NCBI GenBank assembly: GCA_018263175.1
Contig: JADFDB010000008.1
Span: 1 to 38,780 of the forward strand
Reading direction: 5' to 3'
Length of the DNA stretch: 38,780 nucleotides
From: Spirochaetota bacterium
GTDB lineage: Bacteria; Spirochaetota; UBA4802; UBA5368
Below, one piece after another: positions 5,490 through 33,933 of the stretch. The position numbers and the translations under genes are program-made. The notes beneath the pieces are model-generated. The model did not search any database. It was not told the origin of the DNA and saw only the letters and a program-made list of their open reading frames with translations. How positions within the stretch are numbered: position 1 is the first letter of the stretch; every line of letters begins with the position of its first letter.

Positions 5490-5519
5490 GCCTTCTCCTG
5501 TCTCTGCCTTAAGTGTACA

Positions 5520-6887
5520 TTAAATTATGCGAGCGAGCTCCCCGATGTCGCGGAGCTTTTCCATTTCCATCACCATGTCGATGATCCTGTTTAGTTTTGC
5601 GGCGTCGCGCTTCCCGGCGAAACGGTGCAGCTTCGCCGCCAGGTCGTCCGCTTCCATCGGATCGCGCGGGTCACCCTTGGGAATGTCGGTCTGCTTTACG
5701 AAGCGCCGGCCATCTTTAAGGGCGATCTCGACGCGGCTCGACGTTTTGTCGGGGTAGGCTTTATTGAGCTCGTCGTCGGTGCGTATCGAGACGCGTTTCG
5801 CGAGCTCGAGCACCGCGTTATCGGCGATCCTGCGCTCGGTGAGCTGGCCCGGACCGAGGTCGCCGTCGAGAATGCAGGCGGCGACGACATAGGGGATGGA
5901 AAACTGCGCCGAGACAAAGCTCCCTCTCTCGAGAACTCCCTTGCCCACCGCGAGCTCCGCGATCCCGTAGGTGTGCACGGCGATCGAATCGACCTCACTC
6001 GCCTTGATTCCATGCTCCTTAACGAGCTCGAGGGCGGCCTGCGCCGCGCCGTGCGTGTGCCTGCACGCGGTATAGGGCTTGAAGTAGATGTCCATGATGG
6101 AATAGTGCTCGCCCAGACCCTCGGTGAGGCGCTCGACCTTCGGCTCGGCCTTTGCCGTTATCTGCGTGAAGCCGCCCTTGAGCGCCGAGCCCTCGAGCAC
6201 CTCGGGGCACCCCGTGATGCCCTTCGAGGCCAGGCCCGCCGCCATGATTCCGGCGCTCGCCGCCTGGCCGCCCTGCACGATCTTTATGGTGAAACCGCCC
6301 ATAAGCTGTTCGGCCATTGAAATAGGAAGCAGATATCCCGCGTTTCCGATCGCGTTCAGCATGCCCGCATTGTCCAGTCCCATGAGCTTCGCCGCGGCCG
6401 CCGCCGCGCCGAAGGTGCCGCAGGTGCCGGTGGGCAGAAAGCCCGAAAGCGTGTGCCACGGATGCATGGCCGCTGCGGGCCGGTCGGCCGCCTCGTACCC
6501 GGCCACCACCGCCTCGATCACCTCCTTCCCGCCGCGTTTGAGGGACTCGGCCAGCACGAATGCAACCGGCAGCACGGCGGAGACCGGATGGTTTCCCCCG
6601 AAACGAAGGCCGTCCTGCGCCTCTATCGCCTCGGCCGTGGTGCCGTTGATAAAGGCCGCGTTCTGCAGGCCGGTTTTAAACCCGCAGCCGAGCGCGCTCG
6701 CCGCCTTCGGCCCGCCGAGCGACTGCACGTAGTCGACGACCGAACGCACCGCATCAAGCTCCAGTGAGCCGTAGATGTTCGCGATGTAGTCGAGTACGCA
6801 GAGCTTGGCCTTGTGAATTACCTCCGGCGAAAGGTTCTTTATGGAAACATCATGGCAGAATTTCGCGAGTTTTCTGGTATGGTCCAT
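5520..6887 (-). CDS. MmgE/PrpD family protein (2-methylcitrate dehydratase-like)
   Basis: A 455-residue protein with the MmgE/PrpD layout: a large helical N-terminal domain (residues 1 to about 260) with the conserved GTTAEAIEAQDG and HPWHTLSGFLPTGTCGTFGA stretches, then a smaller alpha/beta domain starting around YKPYTACRHTHGAA-type sequence (FKPYTACRHTH here). Characterised relatives are 2-methylcitrate dehydratase, cis-aconitate decarboxylase and iminodisuccinate epimerase, so the reaction could be dehydration, decarboxylation or epimerisation of a hydroxy-acid. GGGAGG lies just upstream of the start. It is preceded by a very strong hairpin and followed by the acyl-CoA dehydrogenase. No prpB or prpC is in the window, so the methylcitrate cycle is not supported. 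Confidence 0.88.
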   Translation of the reverse strand: MDHTRKLAKFCHDVSIKNLSPEVIHKAKLCVLDYIANIYGSLELDAVRSVVDYVQSLGGPKAASALGCGFKTGLQNAAFINGTTAEAIEAQDGLRFGGNHPVSAVLPVAFVLAESLKRGGKEVIEAVVAGYEAADRPAAAMHPWHTLSGFLPTGTCGTFGAAAAAAKLMGLDNAGMLNAIGNAGYLLPISMAEQLMGGFTIKIVQGGQAASAGIMAAGLASKGITGCPEVLEGSALKGGFTQITAKAEPKVERLTEGLGEHYSIMDIYFKPYTACRHTHGAAQAALELVKEHGIKASEVDSIAVHTYGIAELAVGKGVLERGSFVSAQFSIPYVVAACILDGDLGPGQLTERRIADNAVLELAKRVSIRTDDELNKAYPDKTSSRVEIALKDGRRFVKQTDIPKGDPRDPMEADDLAAKLHRFAGKRDAAKLNRIIDMVMEMEKLRDIGELARII

Positions 6888-6910
6888 GATCTCGCCTCCC
6901 GTAAAATATT

Positions 6911-6954
6911 TCGGTTTAGAAGGGGCCGATTCTAATCGGCCCCTTCTAAACCGA
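6911..6954. other. Intercistronic hairpin, perfect 20-bp stem
   Basis: The arm TCGGTTTAGAAGGGGCCGAT is followed by a TCTA loop and its exact reverse complement. It fills the gap between the CoA-transferase beta gene and the MmgE/PrpD gene. In the direction of transcription the hairpin is followed by AAATATTTTAC, not a clean U run, so partial termination or protection of upstream mRNA from 3' exonucleases are both possible. Confidence 0.85.
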
Positions 6955-6968
6955 TGACGACATGCTGG

Positions 6969-7769
6969 TTATACGTATCCGCGCTTCTCGTATATCTTTA
7001 TCATCCTGAACGGATCGAGCACCTCGCGAAGGGCCTTGAGCTCCTCCGCGCGCGGGGGTTCCGTCTCGTGCACGTCGTCACCTACCTTGAGCTTCCACGG
7101 CGTGAGCTTCACGACCTCATCGACCGAAGTATCGGGGTGATAGCTGGCCAGGTACGCCTCCCTTGTCGCTTCATCGAAGCGCATGACCGCCTTGTTGGTG
7201 ATGATAACCTTCGGCCCGGTCCCGGCAGGCAGGCCCCACCGCTCACGCGCGCCGGGACCGTCCAGATAGCCCGGCGTGGTGATGAAATCGACGCGCTCGG
7301 CGAGGCTGCGCGTGTCGTGCAGCGCGATGATGAGCACGTGCTTCGCCAGCGCGCCGATCGGATTCGCCCCTCCCGAACCGGGAAGGCGGCTCTTCGGCTT
7401 ATGGTAATCGCCGATCGCCGTCGTGTTGATGTTGCCGAACTTGTCCACCTGGCTTCCCGAGAGGAAACCCACGTCGATCCATCCGCCCTGGAGGAACATC
7501 CCCATCACTTCGACCAGCCCGCCGATCATCGCCGCGCCGGGGTTCAGACACGGGTCGCCCACGGAGAGCGCCGGGCGCGTCGGCCGCGCATCGAAGACCC
7601 CGGACTCCTGGAGCATCGTCGCTCCGGGCGCGTGCGTGTACTTGGCGATATTCGCCGACATCGTCGGAAAACCGGTGCCCACGATGACGATATCGCCATC
7701 GCCAATCTCGCGGGCACCACAGCAGGCCATGAGTTCGGGTTTGATGTAGTCGTCAGGATGCGTGGTCAT
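6969..7769 (-). CDS. CoA-transferase family I, beta subunit (GctB-like)
   Basis: A 266-residue subunit of a two-subunit CoA-transferase resembling glutaconate CoA-transferase B. E55 in TMLQESGVFD falls at the position of the covalent catalytic glutamate of this family (E54 in Acidaminococcus GctB, from memory). The segment GFLSGSQVDKFGNINTTAIG is the conserved active-site wall. It would move CoA from a donor such as acetyl- or succinyl-CoA to a carboxylic acid. The steroid ring-opening hydrolase IpdAB shares this fold, so a hydrolase role cannot be excluded. The start at 7769 is chosen because GGAGG lies 7 nt upstream, inside the longer ORF of the track. It begins 13 nt after the alpha subunit stop. 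Confidence 0.85.
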   Translation of the reverse strand: MTTHPDDYIKPELMACCGAREIGDGDIVIVGTGFPTMSANIAKYTHAPGATMLQESGVFDARPTRPALSVGDPCLNPGAAMIGGLVEVMGMFLQGGWIDVGFLSGSQVDKFGNINTTAIGDYHKPKSRLPGSGGANPIGALAKHVLIIALHDTRSLAERVDFITTPGYLDGPGARERWGLPAGTGPKVIITNKAVMRFDEATREAYLASYHPDTSVDEVVKLTPWKLKVGDDVHETEPPRAEELKALREVLDPFRMIKIYEKRGYV

Positions 7770-7782
7770 GCTCGTTCCTCCC

Positions 7783-8718
7783 TCAAAATGCATAGCTCAC
7801 CGGGTATCCGTAATCGAACTTCGCCTGGAGCTTCTTGAACTGCGGGTAGCCGAACTTCTGTATGTATTTCTGTGTGTATTCAACGCGGTCCTTCACGCCG
7901 AAGACCCACTCTTCCAGAAACGCCTGAAATCCCTCCTCCGTGTTGGAGGCCTGCTGATAGGTATACCCGAAGGAGAAGTCGACGTCGTAGAAACCCGGCG
8001 TGTAGCCGGGGTGCGCGCCGAAGGGCTCCTCGGTGACGGCGGCCACCTTGAACGCCGGTACGATGGTGCGCGAGGGGTCCTTTCCTATCGTTTCGCGGCT
8101 GACGATGCGCTCGCAGCTCACGATCACCTTTTTCGCGGCGTTTGCGCCCCACTTGCAGTCGCCGCCGATGCCCCACATCTGCGCGTTTCCGTCCTCATCC
8201 GCCTGTTGAACGTGGATGATCGCCACGTCGGGCTTGAGCGCGGGCACGAGCATCACAGGGCTCCCGTCAAAGGGCGATTCGATCATTCTGTACTTGTTCT
8301 CACCCATGAAGGCCTTCACCTTCATGAGGTCGGTCCCCAGCATGTCCTTCACCGGTACGAACGGCATCCCCATGGCGCCGGCCATAAGCATGAGCGGAAG
8401 CGAGAGATTGGTGTATTCCTCGATCTCAATTTTGTGCGGAATGCCCTTCTCGAGCGAGCGTCGGTAACAGCGCGCGAGACCGTAGAGGCCGAGCGAAATG
8501 AACGTGGCGATAAAGCGTTTGACGCATCCGGCCCCGATCAGCATGTCGAAATCGTCGGCCGCGTTGCTGCGCGTCACCGTGAGATCCCGCTTCTTCTGCC
8601 GGATGATCTCGTGCACCGCGGCGAACGGCGGCCGGCAGATGTAGCCCCCGATAAAGAGAAAGTCGCCGTCGTTTACGAAGCGCTGGACCGCTTCGGACGT
8701 ACTCATCACCTTGCTCAT
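7783..8718 (-). CDS. CoA-transferase family I, alpha subunit (GctA/IpdA-like)
   Basis: A 311-residue partner of the following beta subunit. It has the N-terminal glycine-rich FIGGYICRPP segment, the DLTVTRSNAADDFDMLIGAG stretch, and the C-terminal half with HVQQADEDGNAQMWG typical of the alpha chain (compare HxxxaDxxGNa in the family). The subunits would form a cytoplasmic alpha2beta2 or larger complex. GGAGG lies 4 nt upstream of the ATG. The gene follows the glycyl radical enzyme across a 12-bp GC hairpin, so the two are cotranscribed but may differ in message level. Either a transferase (GctAB-like) or a ring-opening hydrolase (IpdAB-like) is compatible with what is visible. Confidence 0.84.
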   Translation of the reverse strand: MSKVMSTSEAVQRFVNDGDFLFIGGYICRPPFAAVHEIIRQKKRDLTVTRSNAADDFDMLIGAGCVKRFIATFISLGLYGLARCYRRSLEKGIPHKIEIEEYTNLSLPLMLMAGAMGMPFVPVKDMLGTDLMKVKAFMGENKYRMIESPFDGSPVMLVPALKPDVAIIHVQQADEDGNAQMWGIGGDCKWGANAAKKVIVSCERIVSRETIGKDPSRTIVPAFKVAAVTEEPFGAHPGYTPGFYDVDFSFGYTYQQASNTEEGFQAFLEEWVFGVKDRVEYTQKYIQKFGYPQFKKLQAKFDYGYPVSYAF

Positions 8719-8749
8719 ACTCCCTCCGATTCACACAGCGATGATGAAG

Positions 8750-8775
8750 CCGGAGGGCGCGGACGCGCCCTCCGG
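8750..8775. other. Intercistronic GC hairpin after the glycyl radical enzyme gene
   Basis: A perfect 12-bp inverted repeat, CCGGAGGGCGCG, with a 2-nt centre, starting 6 nt after the stop codon of the glycyl radical enzyme gene. No U run follows in the transcription direction, so a 3' end stabiliser or processing site is more likely than a factor-independent terminator. Confidence 0.8.
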
Positions 8776-8781
8776 TATGGG

Positions 8782-11163
8782 TTACAGTTCGAACTCGGTG
8801 CGGCTGATGATCTCATCCTGGGCGATCTCGGAAAGGCCCGTAAACTCGGCCGAATAACCGCTCACGCGTACCACAAGGTCGCGGTGCTTTTCGGGCTCGC
8901 GCTGCGCTTCGCGCAGTGTTTCGCTTTCGAGCATGTTGAACTGCACCTGCACGCCGCCCCTGCCGAAATAGGCCCGGATGAGCGAGGAGAGGTTCTCGTT
9001 CGAGATCTTCTTCCCCTGGAAGCGCATGTTTAGATTGACACCGTTATATGCTTTTATAAGCGGGAGCTTCGTCGCCGAGTTCATGAGCGCGGTCGGCCCC
9101 GAAACCGCGTTTCCCGTGGTCGGGGTGATGCCATTGCCGAGCACGTCGCCCGCATAGCGGCCGTCGGACGTCGCCCCGGTGAACGCGCCGAAGCTTATAT
9201 GAAAGCCCACCGAGAAGATTCCCGGCCAGAACCTTCCGCCGCGGAAATTCGGGTGACCCGCAACAACGTCGCAGTAATGCTCCATCACCTTCGCCGCCAT
9301 GGCGTCGACGTCGTCGTGGTCGTTGCCGTACTTGGGAACGCGGTGCAGAAAGTAGGCCCGTTTGTCGTCGACGTCCTGCCAGTCGTCGGAAAGCCATGCC
9401 GCGAGGTCGCCGACGGTAAATTTATTTTCGTCGAACACCGCGGTCTTCACGGCATACAGGCTGTCGGCCACGTTCGCGAAGCCCATCATCTGTACGCCGG
9501 TCGAGTTGTACACCGCGCCGCCGCGCGTGAGGTCCAGCCCCTTCTCGAGGCAGCCATCGATCATCGCCGAGGCGAAGGGCGACGGCACCTTTTCGGCAAT
9601 GGACCTGTCGAGGATCTCCATCCCCCGCGTCATCTGCCGCATGAAATGGCGCATCTGTGCGTCGTAGGCCTTCCATACGTCGTCGAACGAGGTGAATTCC
9701 GAGGGCTCGCCGGTCTCTATGCCGGTGCGATACCCGAAAACGTTGTCGATGCCGTTGGAGAGCGCGAGCTCCACGCACTTGATGCCGTTAAACTGCACCG
9801 CGAAGGTCGAGCCGAAGCTCTTTCCCTGGGCGTTGGCCTCCAGACAGCCGACCACGCCGTAATCGCGCGCGTCCTCGACCGTATGCCCCGCATCGACGAG
9901 CGAGCGCACGACCGCCTCGTCGTTGAAGAAGTGCATGAGCACCCCGTCGCGCGCATATTCGACCGCCCGGTTAAAAAATTCCGGCGGCGGATTCTTCGAC
10001 AGGCGCACGCCAAAATTGGGCTGCACCGTACGAACGTCAGCGTAGGCATCGAGCCCTATGTAGCTCAGCTCGTTAGTCGCGTCGGCGCCGTCCGGACCCA
10101 TGCCGCCCACGGTCACGTTCTGCGTGGTCTTGCCCTCGGTGCCCTCGCCGCCCGGAATGAAGGCCTCCTCGAGCACGTTCCAGATTTCGTTGGTCTTGAT
10201 AAAGAGAAGGGCCATGAGCTCGCGCGCCTTTTCGGGCGTGATGCGTCCCGCCGCGACATCGGCCTTGTAATACGGGTAGAGCACCTGGTCGATCCTTCCG
10301 AGCGAAATGGAATTCCCTCCGGACTCTATCTGAGAAATAAGGTGGATGAAATACACCGACTGCATCGCCTCGTGGAAGCTTTCGGCCGGATGTTCGGGCA
10401 CCCTCCCACAGACGCGGGCGATCTCGCGGAGCTCCGCCGCGCGTGCGGCATCGCGCTCTTTTTTGGCCTGAGCGAGCGCCGTGGCCGCGTAACGGCGCGC
10501 AAAGGATATGGCCGCGTCGCACGAGCGTATCATCGCGTCGTACAGAAGGCCCCTGTCTCCATCCCTTTCGGCAGGCGACAGACGCTCGAGCGCCGCTTTC
10601 GCGTCCTCAATAACGCCTTTGAGTCCCTTCGCGAGTACCCTCGAATGGTTCATGGTGAAATGCCCGATGCCGTAGGTGATCTCGAGCATCATCGTGAAGA
10701 TGTACTTGTCCATGTCCGTTGAGATGTCCTCAGGCAGCAACTCCTCGAGGCGGTTCTCCACGGTCTTCCCCTGCCAGAATGGGAGGATCTTCCCAGCGAG
10801 TTCCTCCTTCTCCTTTGCGGTGATGAGCGCGCGCTGCAGCACGCGGATGTCGAAGTTCTCGAGGTCGCCCTCGATCCAGCGCGACTTGTTTTCCGGGAAG
10901 AGCGGCGCTCCCTTCAGCTTCGAGGTGCGGCATCCGACGATGAGCTCGCCGTCGCGGATGATAACGCTGATCTTGTTCAGGATATGCTCAAGCGCGAGGC
11001 TCATGCGGCTCAGCGGATGCTTCTCCCAGTGCAGCTTCATCGACTCGGTGAGATAGCGGGCCCGTTCGATGCAGACCTCCTGGTGCGCGTCGATGATTTG
11101 CAGGCGAAGGCGCTCCACGCGGGAGGCCCCGACGGACGTACGTACTGCGTGCTGCGTATTCAT
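8782..11163 (-). CDS. Glycyl radical enzyme, PFL/dehydratase superfamily, substrate unknown
   Basis: A 793-residue enzyme with the ten-stranded-barrel architecture of the superfamily. The C-terminal radical loop RVSGYSAEF places the glycyl radical at G769. The thiyl cysteine is C440 in VVGCLEAN, with E442 following as in GCxE eliminases and arylacetate decarboxylases. True pyruvate formate-lyases carry a Cys-Cys pair, which is absent. After GCLE the eliminase signature GK(T/S)xGWHDA is replaced by GKSFGSTFAV, so I do not assign glycerol, propanediol or choline as substrate. The start has AGGAGG 5 nt upstream. The required radical-SAM activase is not adjacent and none is visible in this window. 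Neighbouring CoA-transferase and dehydrogenases suggest an anaerobic catabolic step such as dehydration, decarboxylation or C-C cleavage. Confidence 0.93.
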   Translation of the reverse strand: MNTQHAVRTSVGASRVERLRLQIIDAHQEVCIERARYLTESMKLHWEKHPLSRMSLALEHILNKISVIIRDGELIVGCRTSKLKGAPLFPENKSRWIEGDLENFDIRVLQRALITAKEKEELAGKILPFWQGKTVENRLEELLPEDISTDMDKYIFTMMLEITYGIGHFTMNHSRVLAKGLKGVIEDAKAALERLSPAERDGDRGLLYDAMIRSCDAAISFARRYAATALAQAKKERDAARAAELREIARVCGRVPEHPAESFHEAMQSVYFIHLISQIESGGNSISLGRIDQVLYPYYKADVAAGRITPEKARELMALLFIKTNEIWNVLEEAFIPGGEGTEGKTTQNVTVGGMGPDGADATNELSYIGLDAYADVRTVQPNFGVRLSKNPPPEFFNRAVEYARDGVLMHFFNDEAVVRSLVDAGHTVEDARDYGVVGCLEANAQGKSFGSTFAVQFNGIKCVELALSNGIDNVFGYRTGIETGEPSEFTSFDDVWKAYDAQMRHFMRQMTRGMEILDRSIAEKVPSPFASAMIDGCLEKGLDLTRGGAVYNSTGVQMMGFANVADSLYAVKTAVFDENKFTVGDLAAWLSDDWQDVDDKRAYFLHRVPKYGNDHDDVDAMAAKVMEHYCDVVAGHPNFRGGRFWPGIFSVGFHISFGAFTGATSDGRYAGDVLGNGITPTTGNAVSGPTALMNSATKLPLIKAYNGVNLNMRFQGKKISNENLSSLIRAYFGRGGVQVQFNMLESETLREAQREPEKHRDLVVRVSGYSAEFTGLSEIAQDEIISRTEFEL

Positions 11164-15711: not shown

Positions 15712-16482
15712 TCAGATACCCCACGCGCGCAGACATCCCTTCATCGCCTCGAGCGCAGATGAGCCCTCGAGCTCGAAGACGGTCCCCCCCCGGACATCGT
15801 GCTCGCGAAGCGCCACGTCCTCCGGCACCCGCCCGAGAAGGCGGAGCCCCTCCGGTATGCGCGATCCCCCGGAGCCCCCGGCGACCGCCGCGCGGTTCTG
15901 AATGAATCCGGCGTTCTTGAATCGCACGGCCTCCCGCGCCACGTCGAGGAGCGTCTTCGCCACGGCCATGCCGCGCGCCGATTCGTCCGAAACGATCAAA
16001 AAATGCGTAACGCGCTCCATGACGCGGCGGTTGATCTGCTCGACTCCGGCCTCGCCGTCGATGACCACATAGTCGAAGTTGTCGGCGATCGAGGCGATGA
16101 TATCCTTCAGGAGATCATTCACCCGACAGTAACAGCCCTCTTTTTCAGGGCGTCCTATGGCCAGAAACGCGAGGCGGCCCCGCTCCTCGAGCGCACCGAA
16201 CAGCCGGTAATCGAGGCTCGCCACGACTTCGGCCATGTCCCCGCCCGTGCCCGCCTCCACTTCCCCGATGAAACGGGTGCGCACGTCATCGACCGTTATG
16301 CGCGGAATAAATCCCAGCGAGGCGGCGAGACCGGCCGCGGGATCGGCGTCGATGGCGAGTACCCGCGCCTCCGCTCTCTCGAGAAGAAGCCGGGTCAGAA
16401 AGGCGCTGACCGTGGTCTTACCCGCTCCGCCCTTTCCGCACACGGCAATCACCACCGCCGGTCCCTTCGTGTCATCGTGCAT
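15712..16482 (-). CDS. CooC/MinD-type P-loop ATPase, nickel-insertion-accessory-like
   Basis: A 256-residue ATPase. The deviant Walker A is CGKGGAGKTT (15-24) and the switch motif AIDADPAAGLAASLG follows at 43-57. A CxC motif, EGCYCRVND (C117, C119), matches the metal-binding dimer cysteines of CooC, which matures carbon monoxide dehydrogenase, and of the related AcsF. The VVIDGEAGVEQINRR segment is also CooC-like. It would bind a metal between two subunits and use ATP to deliver it. The start at 16482 has GAAGGA 8 nt upstream and overlaps the preceding CdhC-like gene by 11 nt, so the two are translationally coupled. The window itself encodes no CODH and no full-length acetyl-CoA synthase as a client. 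Confidence 0.82.
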   Translation of the reverse strand: MHDDTKGPAVVIAVCGKGGAGKTTVSAFLTRLLLERAEARVLAIDADPAAGLAASLGFIPRITVDDVRTRFIGEVEAGTGGDMAEVVASLDYRLFGALEERGRLAFLAIGRPEKEGCYCRVNDLLKDIIASIADNFDYVVIDGEAGVEQINRRVMERVTHFLIVSDESARGMAVAKTLLDVAREAVRFKNAGFIQNRAAVAGGSGGSRIPEGLRLLGRVPEDVALREHDVRGGTVFELEGSSALEAMKGCLRAWGI

Positions 16483-17212
16483 GGGGTTTATCCTTCGTGA
16501 GCACGTCGCGAAGCGCCCGCAGTCCGTCCACTTCGCCGCACACACCGGCATAGTCGCAGCCATTGCAATCGAAGCTCATTTCCTCCGACATCCTGTTCAT
16601 GGCCGAAATGAGCTTCGCCGCCCGCTCGCCGATCCGGCGAAGCATGGACACACGCGCGGACGTCGAGGTAACGAAGAGCAGTTCGACGGAGGTGATGTAT
16701 AGGTTCGAACGATACAGCTTCATGACCGCGGCCCCGAGGTTCGCAAGGCCCAGTCCCTTCCCCACGGCAAAGAGGCTCACCCTGCTCCATTCCCTCAGGT
16801 ACTGCGACGCGGCCCTCATCATGTAACCGTCCAGGCCCAGGCCGTGGCGCATGCGCTCGATCTCCCGGTGACGCTCGTAACAGTTGGCTTCATCGAAACC
16901 CGTTACGCCGAGCAGGACCACCTTCCCGAATGGAAGCGTTCCCCCCGCCGCCTCACCCAGGTCCGGGCCGGCGACCGAAACGATACCGTCGCGCACCAGG
17001 CTTCGGTCATTCGTCCACGTCAGAAACGAAACCGACTCGAGCCCAGGGGCGCCGAGCTCGAGCGCGGTGTCACATTTCATTACAATAGAACCCTTCTTCC
17101 CCGGCGGCCAGGCCGCATGGTCCGCTGAGCGGTATTCGCGATAGGAGGGTTCCGAGCGGGCTTCCTCAATAAAAGTCCTCAGCTCGACCATGATTTCCGT
17201 AAAAAGCTCCAC
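16472..17212 (-). CDS. Small CdhC/AcsB (acetyl-CoA synthase)-like protein with C-terminal Cys motif
   Basis: A 246-residue protein. From about residue 66 to 185 the pattern DGIVSVAGPDL...GGTLPFGKVVLLGV...YLREWSRVSLFAVGKGL...VELLFVTS resembles the middle domain of acetyl-CoA synthase (CdhC/AcsB), where GPD, the LPxGxVVxVxG strand, the W-R-S-A-KG helix and a final strand occur in the same order. It lacks the long remainder of that enzyme and its A-cluster region. A C-terminal C216-x2-C219-x5-C225 motif (DCNGCDYAGVCGEVDG) could bind Fe-S or another metal. The start is GTG at 17212 or ATG at 17191. It sits 6 nt after the second activase gene and overlaps the CooC-like gene. The relationship is my reading of conserved pattern and needs a profile search. 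Confidence 0.6.
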   Translation of the reverse strand: MELFTEIMVELRTFIEEARSEPSYREYRSADHAAWPPGKKGSIVMKCDTALELGAPGLESVSFLTWTNDRSLVRDGIVSVAGPDLGEAAGGTLPFGKVVLLGVTGFDEANCYERHREIERMRHGLGLDGYMMRAASQYLREWSRVSLFAVGKGLGLANLGAAVMKLYRSNLYITSVELLFVTSTSARVSMLRRIGERAAKLISAMNRMSEEMSFDCNGCDYAGVCGEVDGLRALRDVLTKDKPHAR

Positions 17213-17218
17213 GAAGCG

Positions 17219-18007
17219 TCAGCCTTCCACAGCGCCCATAAGCGCGTCCATCGCGATGAGCGCCGCGCCGAGCGCCCCATTTATCTGCGGATCCTCGATC
17301 TCGAGGAGCGAACAGCCAAGCGCCGCGCCGAGCGCCGCGAACATTCCTCGATTGCGCGCCACGCCGCCCGACATCACCACGGCCTCTTCCACGCCGATGC
17401 CCCGCGCGAGCGAGGCCGCCCGGCGGGCCACCGCGTGGTGCAGCGCGTTGACGATATCGGCCGTCTCCCTGCCCTCGTTTACGAGCGAAATTATCTCGGT
17501 CTCGGCGAAGATCACGCACTGATTGGAGAGGGTCAGCCTTTCGGTTGACCTCGCGGCGAGGTCCCCCAGCTCCTCGAGCGGCACCTCGAGCGCCTCGGCG
17601 ATGACCTCGAGGAATCGTCCCGTGCCCGAGGCGCACTTATCGTTATACGAATATTGAATCACCCGGCCGTCCGCGTTCATTCGTATGGCCTTGGCGTCCT
17701 GGCCGCCGATGTCGATGACGGTCCGCGCCGCGGGTGCCTTCCACAGCACGCCGCGCGCGTGGCAGGCGATCTCCGACTCTATAGCCTGCGCGAACGGTAT
17801 CCTCGCACGCCCGTACCCGGTGCCCACCGTGCGGTCGAGCCGCTCAATAGCCAGGCCGGCCCGGCCGAGCGCCGCGTCCATCGCCTCGACTGCCGACCTC
17901 TCCGGCGACGTTCCGCAGCGGACCACCGATCGTCCGGCGATCGCGCCGTCGGCGAGAATCACGACCTTTGCCGTAAGAGAGCCCACGTCGCAGCCCGCCG
18001 TTATCAT
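17219..18007 (-). CDS. 2-Hydroxyacyl-CoA dehydratase/benzoyl-CoA reductase-type ATPase activase, second copy
   Basis: A 262-residue BadF/BcrA/HgdC-family ATPase of the ASKHA fold. It has DVGSLTAKVVI at the N-terminus, DIGGQDAKAI near 99-108, and GGVARNRGMF near the C-terminus for nucleotide binding. The cysteines that bridge one [4Fe-4S] between two subunits are C125 (NDKCASGTGRF) and C164 (NQCVIFAE), near C127 and C166 of Acidaminococcus HgdC. ATP hydrolysis drives one electron at very low potential to the dehydratase/reductase partner. Its ATG overlaps the stop of the first activase (ATGA). About half its residues differ from that copy, suggesting a heterodimer as in BcrA/BcrD or two separate partners. 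Confidence 0.92.
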   Translation of the reverse strand: MITAGCDVGSLTAKVVILADGAIAGRSVVRCGTSPERSAVEAMDAALGRAGLAIERLDRTVGTGYGRARIPFAQAIESEIACHARGVLWKAPAARTVIDIGGQDAKAIRMNADGRVIQYSYNDKCASGTGRFLEVIAEALEVPLEELGDLAARSTERLTLSNQCVIFAETEIISLVNEGRETADIVNALHHAVARRAASLARGIGVEEAVVMSGGVARNRGMFAALGAALGCSLLEIEDPQINGALGAALIAMDALMGAVEG

Positions 18008-18795
18008 TTCACGCCTCCGGCCGCCTTTTCGTGCGCGATGAGCGCCGCGCCGAGCGCCCCCGCGAGCTGAGGGTCACAGCGCCGGATGGCCCTCAGCCGA
18101 AGGCCCAGTATGGTCTCGATCGCGGCCAGCACACCGCGGTTCTTCGCCACGCCGCCGGTCATGCAGACGTCGTTTTCAACGCCGAGGTTGTTCACGAGCA
18201 CGGCCATTCGTCCCGCCATGGCGTTGTTGATTCCGGCCGCGATGTCCTCGATGGGTACGCCGTCGTTCAGGAACTGAATAACGTCGGCCTGCGCCCACAC
18301 CGTGCACGCGTTCGCGAGGGTCACCGGGTTTTTCGCCCGCATCGAAAGCTCCCCGAGCTCGTCCAGGCCCAGGCCGAGCAGGCGCGCCATCACCTCGAGG
18401 AAGCGGCCTGTGCCCGAGGCGCACTTGTCGTTCGTGACGAACTTTACGACGGCGCCGGCAGCATCCAGTTTGATCGCCTTGCAGTCCTGGCCGCCGATAT
18501 CGATCACGGTCCGTGCCGAGGGAACCATCCAGCGCGCGCCTTTGCCATGACACGCGATCTCCGACACCGTCGCGTCGACGAAGCCTATCCGGTCCCGCCC
18601 GTATCCCGTTCCAACGCAAAAGCGCACCTCACCCCGGTCGATCCCCGCGGCGGTGCACGCGCCGTTCATCGCCTCCTCGGCCGATTCCTCAGGTTTCGTC
18701 CTCGACTTGATGAGCGAAAAGCCCAGCACCTTTCCTTCGCTCATCAGCACCGCTTTCGATGTGAGCGAACCGACATCGCAACCGCCGACAATCAT
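18004..18795 (-). CDS. 2-Hydroxyacyl-CoA dehydratase/benzoyl-CoA reductase-type ATPase activase, first copy
   Basis: A 263-residue ASKHA activase homologous to the next gene. The bridging [4Fe-4S] cysteines are C125 (NDKCASGTGRF) and C164 (NACTVWAQ). The nucleotide motifs are DVGSLTSKAVL, DIGGQDCKAI and GGVAKNRGVL. The start at 18795 forms an ATGA overlap with the preceding dehydratase-like gene and has GAGGAGG upstream; the ORF track's longer version starts inside that gene. It should receive electrons from ferredoxin or flavodoxin and pass them on with ATP hydrolysis. Having two non-identical activases next to two catalytic-type subunits mirrors the class I benzoyl-CoA reductase gene set. 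Confidence 0.92.
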   Translation of the reverse strand: MIVGGCDVGSLTSKAVLMSEGKVLGFSLIKSRTKPEESAEEAMNGACTAAGIDRGEVRFCVGTGYGRDRIGFVDATVSEIACHGKGARWMVPSARTVIDIGGQDCKAIKLDAAGAVVKFVTNDKCASGTGRFLEVMARLLGLGLDELGELSMRAKNPVTLANACTVWAQADVIQFLNDGVPIEDIAAGINNAMAGRMAVLVNNLGVENDVCMTGGVAKNRGVLAAIETILGLRLRAIRRCDPQLAGALGAALIAHEKAAGGVK

Positions 18796-20201
18796 GCCAG
18801 AATCCTCCTCACCTTCAGGAATTCCTCGAACCTCGCGCGCGTCGCCTCCCACGACTGGACCCTGTCGTCGAAGGCGTCCGAATACATTATATGAGTCGGG
18901 AACCCGGCCTTCTCCGTTTCACGGGCGAACGGCTTCAGCATGCCCCAGGTGTTCCGGCAGCCCGGCGTTCCGCTGTACACGACGAAATCGGCGCTGTACA
19001 TTCGGGCGAGAGAGAGCGTATCCTCGAGCCACATGTCCGGCGCGTCGAAGGGCCCGCGGATCGATTTGATCATGGGCATGCGCGAGTTCATGATCGCAAC
19101 GCTGTCGATCATGGAATCGAGGCTGGTCAGGTCGATCGAATAGGCGGATTCCTCCATGTGGTTTTCCTTCACGTGGGGAGCGTCGATCGACCAGTTACGG
19201 CTGAGGATGTTGCCCTGCAGGCTGATGCCGAGCTCCTCGGACATCCTCCACATTCGCATGTTATACGTATAATGATCGATATAGCAGAAAAATCCCCGGA
19301 CCCGCTCCACGCCGCCGGCGAGGCCGGAGACGCCGCGCTCCGCGTTCCGCCTCGCCATGGTCAGCATTGACTGAAGCATGTCGGTGCAGGGCTTCATGCC
19401 GGCGAAGAGAAAGCGCGCCGCGTAATTCAGGAGTGTAAAGGCGGGCGGGAGCGGGCTCGGAACGATCCGCCCCATCTCCTCCAGCTCGCCGATCAGCTCA
19501 TCCTGCTTTTGCAATTCCCGGAGCACTTCGGCCAGACGCGCCGCCTCGAGCCTCGTGCCCGTTTGCTCCTCGAGAAACGCGACAAGCGCGCGATAATCAT
19601 CGCGGTGATAGCGGTCATAGCGTTCCCCTTTCAACAGCGGCGGCATGTCGAGCTGGAAGAAGGGACGGTCGAGCCATTCGGCGGCGAATGCAAAGGCGTT
19701 CGCGTTGGTGTCGCACACACCGGGGGTGTCGGTCACCACCATGTCGATATCGACGCCGATTCCGGCGAGGTAGGCGCCAAGGCTCCCCCTCTGGGACGAG
19801 CATGAGGTCTCGGTAAAGCCCGCCTCGTTACAGAAGTCCAGGAACTCGGCGCTCCCCCTGCGATAAGTGAAGGTGAGGAACACCGTCATCACCTCCAGAC
19901 AGATCGGGGTTATGTCCATTGCGTAGAATATGACCGGGGAAAAGCAGAAGGAGGTGATGGCGACCTTCCGGCCCCGCTCTCTCGCCGTAACGATGTTTTT
20001 GAGGTATTCGGCGCAGGTCTTGATGAAATACCGTCCGGGCTCGCCGATGCCGAACACCGCATCGAGCATGCCGCTGAAGTAGGGGATATAGCGCAGCGCG
20101 TGCGCGTATTCCTTCTCCGTGCCGGCCATGAGTCTGGACGCGGCATCGTAAGTCGAATGGAGCATCCAATCGAAATGATATTCCTTCAGCGCTCGTCTCA
20201 T
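18792..20201 (-). CDS. 2-Hydroxyacyl-CoA dehydratase/benzoyl-CoA reductase-like subunit (HgdA/BcrB-type)
   Basis: A 469-residue relative of the catalytic subunits that hold an Fe-S cluster and accept the activase electron. Likely cluster cysteines are C86 (TSFCFSPVIFYAMD), C134 or C163 (SCSSQRG, VCDTNANAF) and C415 (GTPGCRNTW), matching the first, middle and last ligand positions of the family. The final stretch resembles the HgdA-type C-terminus (DDRVQSWEATRARFEEFL). The usual family motif CSYxPxE is changed to CFSPVIF. The track's extra 56 residues are arginine-rich out-of-gene sequence; the ATG at 20201 overlaps the preceding stop (ATGA). It probably pairs with the 384-residue subunit. The reaction (dehydration, aromatic reduction or other) is not decided. 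Confidence 0.85.
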   Translation of the reverse strand: MRRALKEYHFDWMLHSTYDAASRLMAGTEKEYAHALRYIPYFSGMLDAVFGIGEPGRYFIKTCAEYLKNIVTARERGRKVAITSFCFSPVIFYAMDITPICLEVMTVFLTFTYRRGSAEFLDFCNEAGFTETSCSSQRGSLGAYLAGIGVDIDMVVTDTPGVCDTNANAFAFAAEWLDRPFFQLDMPPLLKGERYDRYHRDDYRALVAFLEEQTGTRLEAARLAEVLRELQKQDELIGELEEMGRIVPSPLPPAFTLLNYAARFLFAGMKPCTDMLQSMLTMARRNAERGVSGLAGGVERVRGFFCYIDHYTYNMRMWRMSEELGISLQGNILSRNWSIDAPHVKENHMEESAYSIDLTSLDSMIDSVAIMNSRMPMIKSIRGPFDAPDMWLEDTLSLARMYSADFVVYSGTPGCRNTWGMLKPFARETEKAGFPTHIMYSDAFDDRVQSWEATRARFEEFLKVRRILA

Positions 20202-21352
20202 GCCGTCCTCCCCTGCCCGTCTATGCGCTCGAGGAAGGCGTCGAGCCGCATCTTGAGCCTCCCCGTCTCGACGAGCGGCCCGTACTCGCGTTCTATCCGC
20301 ATGCAGGGGACGCCCAGTGCCTCGAGGTCGCGTTCGAAGAGGCCGTTCTCGGCGCCGTGCAGGTCGCAAAAGCGTATGTTCTGGAGGATGACACCGTCGA
20401 CCGACGCGCTTCGTATCGTATCAACCAGTATTTCAAGACGCCGCCGGTAGTCGCCGTACATCCTTGGACAGTCGCTCCGGCGCAGATATCGCTCGGCCAG
20501 GGCGCGCACGGGATCGCGCCCCCCTTCGTCGACGCGATCGTTATGGAAACGCGCCCCGAAGCACAGGTTGTCGGCAACCACCAGCGCGCGCTCCCCTTCG
20601 ATCAGCCGCACGAACGCCGTATCGTCGCTCGCGCTGCCGACCAGCATGAGCCTGCGCCTTCCCTCAATGCCCCGCGGTACGGCGCGGTGCACGGCGATGA
20701 ATTCCTCCAGGAGTTCGTTATACGCATCCCTCGGAATGGCGCTTCCGGCGATGACGACCGAAAGCGCCTCGGCCCCCGTGAAGGGCGGCGCCGGAAGCCT
20801 GCGCATGCGCTCGAGCTCCTCGAGCAGCGAGCGTCCCCGGTTGTAGAGCTCGATCGAATCACGAAGCCGTTCCTCGGTTATACGCACGTCGAAATGACGC
20901 TCGACCGCCTCGATGAGCCGGCGGATCTCCCCTTCAAACCAGTCAACCGTATACGCGGCGAATTTATGGGGGACCGCGAAATGGAAGAAGAACTGCGGCA
21001 CTACGCCCGCAATGTCCTCCCCGGCCTTTCTCCAGCAGTCGTCCAGCCGCCGCATTGAATCGCAGCCGGGAACGATCACCACGCCGTCGAGAAAACCGAA
21101 CGCGCCTGTGCCCGCGAGCTGCAGCATGCATTTGGGCAGGCTGCAGATGAACGGGCCGAAATAGGTGTCCCCGATCGTGGTTTCGTCGGCGCCGTGGCCC
21201 CGTATCCTGTACGGAAGAATCCCCGCCGCGTGGAATATTTCGTCCGGCGCGTAGGAGCAGGTATAGCCGACAATCTTTTTCCCCTCCTCCTTCCACCTCT
21301 GCACGAACTCGTTGTTGAGCGTTTCCACCGCCCGCATCAATCGCACGCTCAT
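20198..21352 (-). CDS. 2-Hydroxyacyl-CoA dehydratase/benzoyl-CoA reductase-like subunit (HgdB/BcrC-type)
   Basis: A 384-residue protein with a standard family start: IVGYTCSYAPDEIFHAAGILPYRIRG, giving cluster ligand C32. C97 (VPGCDSMRR) and C329 (RFCDLHGAEN) complete a typical three-cysteine set. The two Rossmann-like halves are visible around 85-110 and 318-350. The size is close to BcrC and BzdN (about 380). It begins directly after the stop of the upstream unknown gene (TAA then ATG), with GGGGAGGA as ribosome binding site inside that gene. It is expected to form a heterodimer with the next gene product and to be activated by the two ATPases. Double-cubane cluster proteins belong to the same superfamily and are an alternative. 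Confidence 0.88.
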   Translation of the reverse strand: MSVRLMRAVETLNNEFVQRWKEEGKKIVGYTCSYAPDEIFHAAGILPYRIRGHGADETTIGDTYFGPFICSLPKCMLQLAGTGAFGFLDGVVIVPGCDSMRRLDDCWRKAGEDIAGVVPQFFFHFAVPHKFAAYTVDWFEGEIRRLIEAVERHFDVRITEERLRDSIELYNRGRSLLEELERMRRLPAPPFTGAEALSVVIAGSAIPRDAYNELLEEFIAVHRAVPRGIEGRRRLMLVGSASDDTAFVRLIEGERALVVADNLCFGARFHNDRVDEGGRDPVRALAERYLRRSDCPRMYGDYRRRLEILVDTIRSASVDGVILQNIRFCDLHGAENGLFERDLEALGVPCMRIEREYGPLVETGRLKMRLDAFLERIDGQGRTA

Positions 21353-22819
21353 TTATTCCTCCCCGCCGCACAGGGCCTTCCGGAGAGCCGTTCGCGCCAT
21401 CAGCATGTCATCCCCATCGCCCGCGGCGGCGATGAGCTCCGCGGCGGCCATCATTACCGGCGGCACCACCTCGGGCGCGATGGGCGCGACCGCCCGCGCA
21501 AGATCTTCCATAAGCCAGCGGGCGCTCTGTCCGACCTCGCGGCCATCGAGTGAGCCGATGACCTGCGCGGTGAAGCCGGCAAGCAAACCGGGGCGCAGAT
21601 CGTGCACGCGGTTGAGCAGCTCGAGAAAACGCCCGAGCGCCGAGGCGAGCTCCTGCGCGTCGACCGCACCGAGGGCGCGCGTGAAAACGCCGGCAAGATC
21701 CTCGTCGGAGAGGGCCCTCTCCAGGCAATCAGTCCCGCGGCCGAACCTCCTCACTCCACGGCCCAGCCGGTCAAAGCGCTCCGCGAGGAGCGCGCGCAAC
21801 AGCTCGGGGCGTTCCACGAGCATCCCGATGAGGCGCCCGCGCGTCTGCTCGAGCGCATCCGCCGTCATGGCACGCGCTTTGACGAACGCCTCTACATCGA
21901 TCGTCCGGGCGGCATCCTCCACGAAGCCCGCGACGTCTTCGGGAAGGCGCGGCCGTCCCTGCTCGCCGATGAGCTCGCTGCCCGTAAACAGCTTCCTCAG
22001 AAGCTCGGTCGCTTCATTGATGAGCGCGCCCATGCGTTTGCCGTCCGCCTCCCGCATCAGCGAGAGCACGACATCGGCCAGAAGGTCGGGGGCCAGCCGG
22101 TTGAGCGGCGCAAGCGACACGCACGCCGCGTCCAGGGCCATGTTCATGATGGACGGCAGGATGGAAAGAATACACACGACCTTGGCCGGATACCTCCAGA
22201 GCTCCTCGTTGACGGCCCCGAGCAGGGCCACGGCATCGGCCGACGACGAGTCAACGCACTCCTTCAGTTCGCCGAAATCGGTCGCCTCTATCCACTCGCG
22301 CAGGTGCGGCGTGATCAGTTTCGAGAAAAAGACCGGATCGGCTTCGTGCAGCCCGTTTATAATGCGGATGATCGAGCCGAGCTGCCTCCCGAGCGTGCCG
22401 CCGGGGCGCGCCCGTTCCAGGCAACCCGATACGATCCTCCGCCGCTCGTCCGGCGGCAGCGACTCCATACCGCCGAGCAGGGACTCCACGGCCCCGAGCA
22501 GCCCGCCGGCAAGGCGCGGCGCGAGCCCCGCGGCATCGCGAAGCACGGCGGGATCGGCGCAGATTTCGGCAACGCTTCGGCGGGGACCACCGGACCGATT
22601 CGAAAACCCCCATTCAATTAATTTCGTGATAACAGAAGCCAAGCCCCGCCTGAACATGCCTTCGCCCGCCCAGACGCCGAGAACCGCCGGCGCGGCCTCG
22701 GTGAGGAACGATCCGAACTCGCGGGTGCCCGCCAGGGCGGACGCCAGTCGGGCCATCGCGCCGTCGGCCTCAGTCTCGGCCGAGCGGTCCGTCATTTCCA
22801 TCTGCTCGTATCCCGTCAT
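21353..22819 (-). CDS. Helical protein of unknown function, inside the activase operon
   Basis: A 488-residue soluble protein, very rich in Ala, Leu, Arg and Glu, with no signal peptide. It appears to consist of many amphipathic helices, for example LSDEDLAGVFTRALGAVDAQ and LASALGRFLELLNRVHDLR, suggesting a repeat-helical scaffold of HEAT or armadillo type. One more hydrophobic helical patch is AKVVCILSILPSIMNMALD. Few cysteines are present and none form a metal motif. I do not recognise the family. The start at 22819 follows GGAGGGGG; the track's longer start overlaps the TetR gene. It abuts the HgdB-like gene, which indicates a tight functional link, possibly as structural partner or lid of the complex. 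Confidence 0.75.
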   Translation of the reverse strand: MTGYEQMEMTDRSAETEADGAMARLASALAGTREFGSFLTEAAPAVLGVWAGEGMFRRGLASVITKLIEWGFSNRSGGPRRSVAEICADPAVLRDAAGLAPRLAGGLLGAVESLLGGMESLPPDERRRIVSGCLERARPGGTLGRQLGSIIRIINGLHEADPVFFSKLITPHLREWIEATDFGELKECVDSSSADAVALLGAVNEELWRYPAKVVCILSILPSIMNMALDAACVSLAPLNRLAPDLLADVVLSLMREADGKRMGALINEATELLRKLFTGSELIGEQGRPRLPEDVAGFVEDAARTIDVEAFVKARAMTADALEQTRGRLIGMLVERPELLRALLAERFDRLGRGVRRFGRGTDCLERALSDEDLAGVFTRALGAVDAQELASALGRFLELLNRVHDLRPGLLAGFTAQVIGSLDGREVGQSARWLMEDLARAVAPIAPEVVPPVMMAAAELIAAAGDGDDMLMARTALRKALCGGEE

Positions 22820-22868
22820 AGCTGCCCCCTCCACTGCCTTTCGCCCGGCATTCCGCACATCGCCTCCC

Positions 22869-23462
22869 TCAGGCGGGAGCGCGCCTTCGGGCCGCCTTTT
22901 TTCCGGGTCCGGCCGCGCCCGCCCCGACGACGCCCCGTAAAAGCCCGAGCTGTTCATTGAAATCCACGCTCCCCGGCGCGAGGAGCGAGTGGTACATGAG
23001 TCCGATGAGCGAAATGAATATAAATGACGCGGTCTTCGGCCTCACATGCAGGTAGGCGGCGATAGCCTTCCGATAGGTGTTGGAAAAGCGTATCAGGGCC
23101 TCCTGTCCCGGCTGTGCATCGTTAGAGCGGTAAAAGTCGACCGCGAGCAGCATAATGTTCTGATAAAAGGCACGGTTGCGGCCCCAGTGCGCGGCGATCC
23201 GATTGTAAATCTCGTCCGGGTCGCGAAGCGGGCGTATCTCCTTAAGTATCTTCTCGATATCCAGTTTGCTCTCCTGCTCGAAGAGCTGTTCGAATATGTC
23301 CTTCTTCGCCGGAAAATAATGATATAACGTCCCGGTTGACACGCCCAGTTCCCCGGCGATCTCGCGCATGGTTACGTTGGCGTACCCCTTTCGGCTGAAA
23401 AGCCCGAAGCACCCCGCGAGGAGCTCCCGGCTGTATTCATCGCGATCGACGATCTTGGGCAT
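22869..23462 (-). CDS. TetR/AcrR family transcriptional regulator
   Basis: A 197-residue regulator. The N-terminal helix-turn-helix is typical (FGLFSRKGYANVTMREIAGELGVSTGTLYHYFPAKKDIF), and the remaining helical domain would bind a ligand. The C-terminal 25 residues are basic and alanine-rich. The ATG at 23462 overlaps the stop of the GMC oxidoreductase gene (TGATG), so it is the second gene of the operon and is cotranscribed. It probably represses the operon through an inverted repeat upstream of the GMC gene (24927-24954). The ligand could be an acyl-CoA as for many TetR proteins near acyl-CoA genes. Confidence 0.92.
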   Translation of the reverse strand: MPKIVDRDEYSRELLAGCFGLFSRKGYANVTMREIAGELGVSTGTLYHYFPAKKDIFEQLFEQESKLDIEKILKEIRPLRDPDEIYNRIAAHWGRNRAFYQNIMLLAVDFYRSNDAQPGQEALIRFSNTYRKAIAAYLHVRPKTASFIFISLIGLMYHSLLAPGSVDFNEQLGLLRGVVGAGAAGPGKKAARRRAPA

Positions 23463-24802
23463 CAGCGCCCACCCCTCCGCCCGCCGGTTTTTTTCGTCCG
23501 TTTTCCGGGCACGGCAAGGTGGCGGGCGAGGCGCTTGCCCAGGCAGACCAGCGTGAGCACCGGGGGAAGCCCCCATGGCTCGGGAATGACCGAGCAGTCG
23601 CAGACGTACAGATTTGCGACGTCCTTAACCTTCAGGTTCGAATCGAGGATGCGACCTATCCGCACCGTTCCGCCGGGATGGGCGGCGAGTTTCCACGTGG
23701 TGTACATCCCCCTCGCCCCCGCGTGGGAGAGGATGTTACGCGCGATATCGGCCCCCTTGCGAAGCCTCTCCCTGTCGGCCGGCGTAAGCTCTTTGCGCAC
23801 GCCGCCGCTGTCGGTGAGCCTTCCGGCGAGGTCGTCCCGTATCTTCACCATGATGCGTACTGTTTTTCGCGACTGGAAAATCTTAAAAAAGCGCAGCGAC
23901 ATCGCCGCGAACATGCGGTCCAGCATGGTTTGCAGCGCGAGGTCGGTCATAACGAAACCCTCTCTCGCGAAGATACAGCCCGCGCTCATTGGGATCTCGT
24001 CCCTTCTGCGGCGCACGTCCTTAACAGTGCCGCATACGGTCACGAGCGGGTCGAAGAAGAAATCGTACCCGGCCTCGCGCAGGCCGCTCTTTCGTAAAAT
24101 TACCGGTGAGCCTATGCCCCCCGCCGCTATGACCACCGTGTCGGCAAAGATGCTCCGGCTGCGGCCGCACGCCGTATAGCTCACCCCGACGGCCCTTCCG
24201 TTTTCGATGATCACCCGGTCCACCCTGGCCCCGTTTACGAGGACCGCCCCGGCCTCGACGGCCTCGTCCATAAGCATGCGCGCGCTCCATTTAACGCCGT
24301 GCGGATCGCCGTAATAGCCGAAGCGGTAGCCGCTTTTCCACCGGTCCTGGTACATGAACTTGGGCAGCCCCTTCCAGTCGTAGCCGAGCGCTCTCGCACT
24401 CTCCATAATGCGGCGCGCCATCGGCGTCATCATTTCGTCCTTAAGCGGCGCTATCGGAAGCTCGGCCCTCGCCTCGCGCTCCTCGCGGCGCACGTCGATA
24501 CCGTATTTTCGAAGCATCTCGTGCGGGACCGGGAAGGCGGTGGCATAGTAGAAGACGGAGCTCCCCCCGGTGACGATCCCGCGCACCATCGCGAGAAGGT
24601 TCGGCGTAAACAGCAGCGACCTGCCGGGAACGAGCTGCCACCGGAGATACTGGAGGAAGCTCCCGCGCACCGGCGCGCCGGACCCCCATTCGAGCACCAG
24701 CACGCGCCGGCCTTTTTTCGCGAGCTCCCGCGCGACGCTTGCGCCGCCCGGCCCGGAACCGGCAATTATGGCGTCATACCGTTCGGACGATGTATTTCCC
24801 AT
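23462..24802 (-). CDS. GMC-type FAD-dependent oxidoreductase
   Basis: A 446-residue flavoenzyme. The FAD-binding GSGPGGASVARELAKKG is at 15-31, the second FAD region TGGSSVFYYATAF corresponds to the family's GGSS/GGT loop, and the C-terminal catalytic region has AAHPGGTVRIG and DCSVIPEPWGLPPVLT. GMC enzymes oxidise alcohols such as long-chain alcohols, sterols, choline or sugars. In an anaerobe the electron acceptor would be a quinone or another carrier, not oxygen. There is no signal peptide. The track's GTG start is 3 nt before an ATG that has GGGGAGG at 5-nt spacing, so 24802 is used. It leads the nine-gene operon and may supply its substrate. Confidence 0.88.
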   Translation of the reverse strand: MGNTSSERYDAIIAGSGPGGASVARELAKKGRRVLVLEWGSGAPVRGSFLQYLRWQLVPGRSLLFTPNLLAMVRGIVTGGSSVFYYATAFPVPHEMLRKYGIDVRREEREARAELPIAPLKDEMMTPMARRIMESARALGYDWKGLPKFMYQDRWKSGYRFGYYGDPHGVKWSARMLMDEAVEAGAVLVNGARVDRVIIENGRAVGVSYTACGRSRSIFADTVVIAAGGIGSPVILRKSGLREAGYDFFFDPLVTVCGTVKDVRRRRDEIPMSAGCIFAREGFVMTDLALQTMLDRMFAAMSLRFFKIFQSRKTVRIMVKIRDDLAGRLTDSGGVRKELTPADRERLRKGADIARNILSHAGARGMYTTWKLAAHPGGTVRIGRILDSNLKVKDVANLYVCDCSVIPEPWGLPPVLTLVCLGKRLARHLAVPGKRTKKTGGRRGGR

Positions 24803-25056
24803 CACGACCTCCCCATTTTCCGTAAACCTTCGGCAAAGCGCGCTTTACCGCGATTTCCGAAAGTCCCGTATGTGTTCACCGCGCGGACACCGGACGAGTA
24901 TGACGGAAAGGCCGCGGTTTTCAAGCTTTTTATATCATATGTTCGATATAAAAATAGCCTAAGACGATCTTTCATTTGACATTTTGCCAAACCCGTGCAT
25001 TCTCTGCAATGCCGGCGTGTCGAAACGTCCGGCTATACCGCCCGAGGAGCCCGTCC
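24803..25056. other. Divergent intergenic region between GMC and EAL genes
   Basis: This 254-nt gap holds the promoters of the leftward nine-gene operon and the rightward EAL gene. Its AT-rich centre (24920-24980) contains the inverted repeat listed next. TTGACATTTTGCC (24975-24987) resembles a -35 element for the plus strand but no good -10 follows at the right distance. No gene is supported in it. Confidence 0.5.
24927..24954. promoter_or_regulatory. Inverted repeat, candidate TetR operator for the activase operon
   Basis: Perfect 10-bp arms TTTTTATATC and GATATAAAAA are separated by 8 bp. It lies about 125 bp upstream of the GMC start in an AT-rich promoter-like stretch. Its size (28 bp) is normal for a TetR-family site and the TetR gene is second in the operon. 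The assignment is by position and symmetry only. Confidence 0.5.
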
Positions 25057-33839: not shown

Positions 33840-33933
33840 GCTTTCCTCCATGTTAAATAGCTTTCACACTGTCGATACGTCGCCCTGATCATTCCGCGTC
33901 CATTGAGTGTTCTGCCATGAGGAGACGGAACAG

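Follow-up and report, generated by a model that had tools for sequence, protein, structure and literature searches.

The window analysed here, a 38,780-nt stretch that makes up contig C230 of a 2.65-Mb Spirochaetota genome (73% complete), carries a nine-gene operon on its minus strand (about 15712–24805) with two activase genes and two genes for different catalytic subunits at its centre. With a probability of roughly 0.6, we consider this operon to encode a BCR/HAD-family reductase that depends on ATP, operates at very low potential, is laid out like class I benzoyl-CoA reductase (BCR) and probably acts on a CoA-linked substrate other than benzoyl-CoA. It belongs neither to class I BCR nor to the 2-hydroxyacyl-CoA dehydratases, and is best called a new BCR/HAD-family clade with a distinctive conserved operon rather than a benzoyl-CoA reductase. 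No described case of this gene combination was found in the literature searched, and identifying the substrate would uncover a step that is common in sulfate reducers and syntrophs but has so far had no assignment.

Gene content of the operon and its surroundings

The operon is larger than the four genes first noted, and its order on the minus strand is GMC oxidoreductase, TetR, F5, F2, F4, act1, act2, CdhC-like and CooC-like. The first gene (23462–24805, starting at ATG 24802 or GTG 24805) encodes a GMC/FAD-dependent oxidoreductase (PF00732/PF05199), and its stop codon is overlapped by the gene for a TetR-family regulator (22869–23465, PF00440; probable start ATG 23465), whose length of 198 aa agrees with that of its counterpart in a congener (198 aa). 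F5 (21353–22819; 488 aa if translation begins at the likely start, 22819) is an orphan protein with no Pfam or NCBIfam match; its AlphaFold model is all alpha (pLDDT 84, pTM 0.63), and no PDB structure matched its fold at E ≤ 0.001.

The central four ORFs are all intact. F2 (20198–21352; 384 aa, PF06050 282 bits) is a BzdN/BcrC-type subunit and predicted carrier of an [8Fe-9S] double-cubane cluster, and F4 (18792–20201; 469 aa, PF06050 145 bits) is a divergent active-site subunit of the BcrB/BzdO/HgdA type with a predicted [4Fe-4S] cluster, both being assigned to PF06050 (HGD-D) by Pfam profile search. The paralogous activase subunits act1 (18004–18795; TIGR00241 250 bits) and act2 (17219–18007; TIGR00241 236 bits) are BadF/BadG/BcrA/BcrD-type ATPases that score well over the cut-off of PF01869/TIGR00241 in the Pfam and NCBIfam profiles. 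An earlier note on this DNA had described two different activases and two different catalytic subunits joined by ATGA overlaps, a gene content mirroring BcrABCD/BzdNOPQ. Both points hold: ATGA is found at the F2/F4 (..GCATGAGA..), F4/act1 (..GCATGATT..) and act1/act2 (..AAATGATA..) junctions, act1 and act2 share 50% identity, and F2 and F4 share 26% (local alignment, 245 residues). The operon ends with a CdhC-like gene (16472–17212) encoding a stand-alone acetyl-CoA-synthase domain with a C-terminal CxxCx5C motif (PF03598 34.5 bits, above the gathering threshold of 24) and a gene for a CooC-like P-loop ATPase with a CxC motif (15712–16482; CbiA/MinD-type Pfam matches).

Elsewhere in the window, a PFL2-3 glycyl radical enzyme (8782–11118, minus strand) scored 678.5 bits against TIGR01774 (cut-off 678.2) and missed every specific equivalog. 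Its gene neighbours are a CoA-transferase-like pair (6969–8718), an MmgE/PrpD-family gene (5520–6887) and an acyl-CoA dehydrogenase (4329–5489), and this neighbourhood (4329–11118) is possibly a catabolic cluster. A BaiCD-like Fe-S flavoenzyme gene (31908–33851, minus strand; 537 bits, under the equivalog cut-off of 825) adjoins genes for an enoyl-CoA hydratase and an acyl-CoA dehydrogenase. The same genome also contains a separate and far more typical HadBC-like pair (locus L060, G000:C199, 1–2398, minus strand; NF052455 304.6 bits, NF052456 236.6 bits). In addition, a 1436-aa ORF with two TIGR00241 activase domains (L064, G000:C185, 3269–7579, minus strand), which adjoins a 923-aa ORF, presumably resembles the multidomain plasmalogen synthase PlsA/PlsR.

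Distribution and accessory genes

The operon is present at about 90 loci, all in strict anaerobes; 78 loci were located in the named-genome collection (Desulfobacterales, Syntrophales, Spirochaetota and others), and the carriers include the cultured Desulfatibacillum alkenivorans and Desulfoluna limicola. Of the 393 genomes sampled within Spirochaetota, 16 had the gene, and these all belong to one order. The same operon is found in Spirochaetota and Desulfobacterota, and the order of its core genes is the same across 15 related genomes with small variations (a missing TetR gene, for example); conservation of the arrangement across phyla excludes chance. A search of plasmids gave one weak, partial match (27%).

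When only loci with enough flanking DNA around F4 were counted, F2 was near F4 in 59/62, F5 in 56/58, the CdhC-like gene in 44/49 and the CooC-like gene in 45/49. Of 61 loci, 57 had two activases near F4, which departs from the single homodimeric activase of 2-hydroxyacyl-CoA dehydratases. The GMC gene was present in 36 of the 48 loci with enough upstream sequence, and is replaced by two acyl-CoA-dehydrogenase-like genes at Smithella-type loci. The regulator is of the TetR, GntR/FCD or AraC type depending on the locus and the operon is multi-copy in several isolates, which together suggest inducible catabolism.

At 17 of 37 loci the operon is followed by F2b-F9-act3, a further subunit pair together with a single activase (for example L077, 14565–18125, with equivalents elsewhere), and F2b too carries all six double-cubane cysteines. 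Several loci have a single F2 but two F4 genes in tandem (L109, 8519–11404; L117, 10001–12818), suggesting exchangeable active-site subunits.

Both genes at the end of the operon encode proteins with invariant cysteines. C117-x-C119 and the P-loop lysines K17/K22 are retained in 53/53 CooC-like proteins, and C216, C219 and C225 at the C-terminus of the single acetyl-CoA synthase domain are invariant in 34 CdhC-like orthologues. CooS, the catalytic subunit of CODH, was absent over cut-off from 8 of 16 operon-bearing genomes (the truncated match in the window's own genome not being counted), with six CooS-negative genomes 94–99% complete (G012, G016, G021, G028, G031 and G035). Since the CooC-like and CdhC-like proteins are retained without CooS, they do not simply serve CODH/ACS. 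To our knowledge, conserved partners of these two kinds accompany no other BCR/HAD system.

Cluster ligands and active-site residues

In the BzdNO structure, the [8Fe-9S] double-cubane cluster of BzdN is bound by six cysteines, with Arg53, Arg267, Arg290 and His330 nearby (PMC11971306). BzdN was also the best PDB match of F2, in which C32, C70, C97, C264, C295 and C329 align with the six cysteines and R49, R268 and H332 with Arg53, Arg267 and His330. These residues are kept in 66–67 of 67 F2 proteins, the equivalent of Arg290 being variable, and on the strength of its ligands F2 is predicted to carry an [8Fe-9S] double-cubane cluster. Four of the six cysteines are present in HadC and three in MbdN, and DCCP has all six without the Arg53 and His330 equivalents. 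As the ring reductase subunit MbdN lacks the double-cubane cluster, and DCCP, which is not known to have a natural substrate, possesses it, cluster type is no proof of CoA-thioester reduction.

In BzdO, a [4Fe-4S]-OH2 cluster is held by Cys95, Cys128 and Cys380, and the acid/base residues are Glu65 and His131 (PMC11971306). The corresponding C134, C163, C415 and catalytic E103 of F4 are retained in 88/88 proteins; the three cysteines and the HGD-D fold place F4 in the BCR/HAD superfamily (PF06050), and from the ligands its cluster is predicted to be a [4Fe-4S]. The His131 position is occupied by Asn in 88/88 proteins (N166 in F4). This substitution is not diagnostic, because the ring reductase subunit MbdO has Phe at this position and HadB also lacks the histidine. 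The thioester-contact residues of BzdO (Tyr97, Gln274 and Tyr298) are not conserved in F4, Tyr97 being replaced by Ser/Ala, and this counts against a CoA-thioester substrate.

The earlier note had considered it unusual that F4 has CFSPVIF in place of CSYxPxE, a contrast that compared non-equivalent subunits. The motif belongs to subunits of the BcrC/BzdN type and is present in F2 as CSYAPDE, its Cys being a predicted double-cubane ligand, and the loop equivalent to that of F4 reads STSVFPQE in HadB and SGSAWALD in BzdO, neither of which has CSYxPxE. The motif is not normal in BcrB/HgdA-type subunits, and its absence from F4 is not in itself odd. What is unusual in this active-site loop is a fourth invariant F4 cysteine, C86, which is new with respect to the relatives compared and aligns, with a one-residue uncertainty, to Val38 of HadB, the residue after Ser37. 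Replacement of the active-site serine (HadB S37, BzdO S44) by C86 was considered and rejected: F85 falls on S37 and C86 on V38 according to each of three MAFFT modes and both HMM alignments, and our claim is therefore limited to a new Cys in the loop. F4 also has an N-terminal extension of about 55 residues relative to BzdO. The predicted structure of F4 (pLDDT 88, pTM 0.90) gave TM scores of 0.70–0.83 to BzdO and HadB, and MbdO matched about equally well.

Both cluster cysteine motifs could be seen in the act1 sequence. The two activases are kept family-wide and formed sister clades (support 98/94; 100/99 for act1 and 100/99 for act2) apart from MbdP and MbdQ, in a tree where the MbdP branch is long and the rows did not include BcrAD/BzdPQ. 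This two-activase design and that of MbdPQ therefore probably have separate origins.

Phylogenetic placement, function and known systems

Trees of the catalytic subunits were built with reference sequences of solved structures taken from HMMER alignments (aligned parts only; Thauera BcrBC, HgdAB and FldBC were left out). F4 formed one clade, with F9 closest and long branches between the two; the operon F2 rows formed another, which joined F2b, and one extra F2 paralogue (L076) grouped with F2b. Placement well inside ordinary dehydratases, which the earlier note had named as the outcome that would overturn its proposal, was not obtained for either subunit: constrained trees uniting F4 with HadB-type rows (p-AU 0.01) and F2 with HadC-type rows (p-AU 0.0006) were rejected. 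This result bears on the rival view that the enzyme is a 2-hydroxyacyl-CoA dehydratase whose second activase is an unusual addition; F4/F2 would then dehydrate a 2-hydroxyacyl-CoA via a ketyl radical, and ATP would be used for activation only. Membership of the same superfamily, the weak sequence matches of F4, which point to HadB, its equal fold similarity to HadB and BzdO, and the missing histidine in HadB itself are all consistent with such an enzyme. We nevertheless regard it as unlikely, given the rejected nesting, the two double-cubane cysteines constant in F2 but missing from HadC, the family-wide retention of two activases and the presence of a much more HadBC-like pair elsewhere in the same genome (contig C199).

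F2 obtained its top NCBIfam score from the double-cubane model (171 bits, cut-off 350), the CooC- and CdhC-like partners indicate metal chemistry and the BzdO thioester contacts are lost, so that the operon might act on no CoA substrate at all, either as a DCCP-like small-molecule reductase or as an ATP-driven reductive activator of another metalloenzyme. This seems improbable, since DCCP is homodimeric and works with a single type of activase whereas the operon has an invariant asymmetric pair including a three-cysteine [4Fe-4S] subunit, and the operon contains no conserved target metalloenzyme. A distinctly doubtful and more radical proposal is that the catalytic cluster of F4 differs from those of known BCR/HAD enzymes, for instance an all-cysteine [4Fe-4S] cluster with C86 or a heterometal cluster (such as Ni) that would be loaded by the dedicated CooC-like ATPase together with the CdhC-like protein; sulfate reducers and syntrophs would then have a new ATP-driven reduction.

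A true class I BCR for benzoate or a close analogue is already largely refuted and highly improbable despite the two catalytic and two activase subunits and the BzdN double-cubane ligands of F2, because both subunits fall under every BCR equivalog cut-off in NCBIfam (F2 135 bits, cut-offs 421–454), F4 has no BcrB/BzdO match at E ≤ 0.001 in these profiles, Tyr97 and His131 are not kept, F4+BzdO and F2+BzdN clades were rejected (p-AU 0.002 for each), and the ring-opening 6-oxocyclohexenoyl-CoA hydrolase (TIGR03200) was over cut-off in 0/20 genomes. On this last result a benzoate pathway was rejected, and, as the earlier note had observed, the other genes of a benzoate operon are absent.

For the ATP-dependent reductase that we favour, electron flow would probably resemble that of class I BCR. 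The activases act1 and act2 would pair as a heterodimer bridged by a [4Fe-4S] cluster, and their ATP hydrolysis would drive electrons, probably from ferredoxin, into F2. Electrons stored on the predicted double-cubane cluster of F2 would move on to F4 and its three-cysteine [4Fe-4S] cluster, the proposed site of substrate reduction. The substrate is probably a CoA thioester that is unsaturated or contains a ring but is not benzoyl-CoA. CoA thioesters are the default substrate type of the superfamily; no gene marker of the substrate was found, and the aromatic or alicyclic substrate that the earlier note had suggested is an unproven candidate. The CooC-like ATPase and Cys-rich CdhC-like protein probably help to mature the clusters or to deliver electrons, and an adjacent oxidation step is probably carried out by the GMC oxidoreductase or, at Smithella-type loci, by the two acyl-CoA-dehydrogenase-like proteins. 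Strict anaerobes usually avoid the stoichiometric ATP cost of class I chemistry (PMC11971306), which counts against a reductase.

Among known systems, the last two genes share sequence motifs with CooC/AcsF and the acetyl-CoA synthase beta subunit (PF03598), but are encoded without CODH/ACS, even in nearly complete genomes lacking CooS over cut-off. DCCP and DCCP-R (6eno, 7yyl) resemble the operon in the six double-cubane cysteines and an ATP-dependent activase, whereas DCCP is homodimeric and lacks both an F4-type subunit and the Arg53 and His330 equivalents found in F2. HadBC and its activator HadI (3o3m, 4eht) share the fold, the cluster cysteines (C84, C117 and C346 of HadB) and Glu55 of HadB, but two of the six double-cubane cysteines are missing from HadC, the activase is a single homodimer and the tree placement was rejected. 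The 3-methylbenzoyl-CoA reductase MbdONPQ (9g87, 9gai) also combines a heterodimeric catalytic part with two activases, although MbdN has only three of the six double-cubane cysteines and the activases MbdP and MbdQ do not group with act1/act2. BzdNOPQ (8s02) likewise has two catalytic and two activase subunits, the six double-cubane cysteines and a three-cysteine [4Fe-4S] subunit with the catalytic Glu. The operon differs from it in forming clades of its own, in the His131 to Asn and Tyr97 to Ser/Ala replacements, the extra invariant Cys and the N-terminal extension of F4, and in having CooC, CdhC, GMC and F5 partners without a ring-opening pathway. It makes up a second heterodimeric lineage, separate from that of BzdNO, in which this double-cubane ligand set occurs, and it is widespread in strict anaerobes, for which class I chemistry is held to be too costly in ATP.
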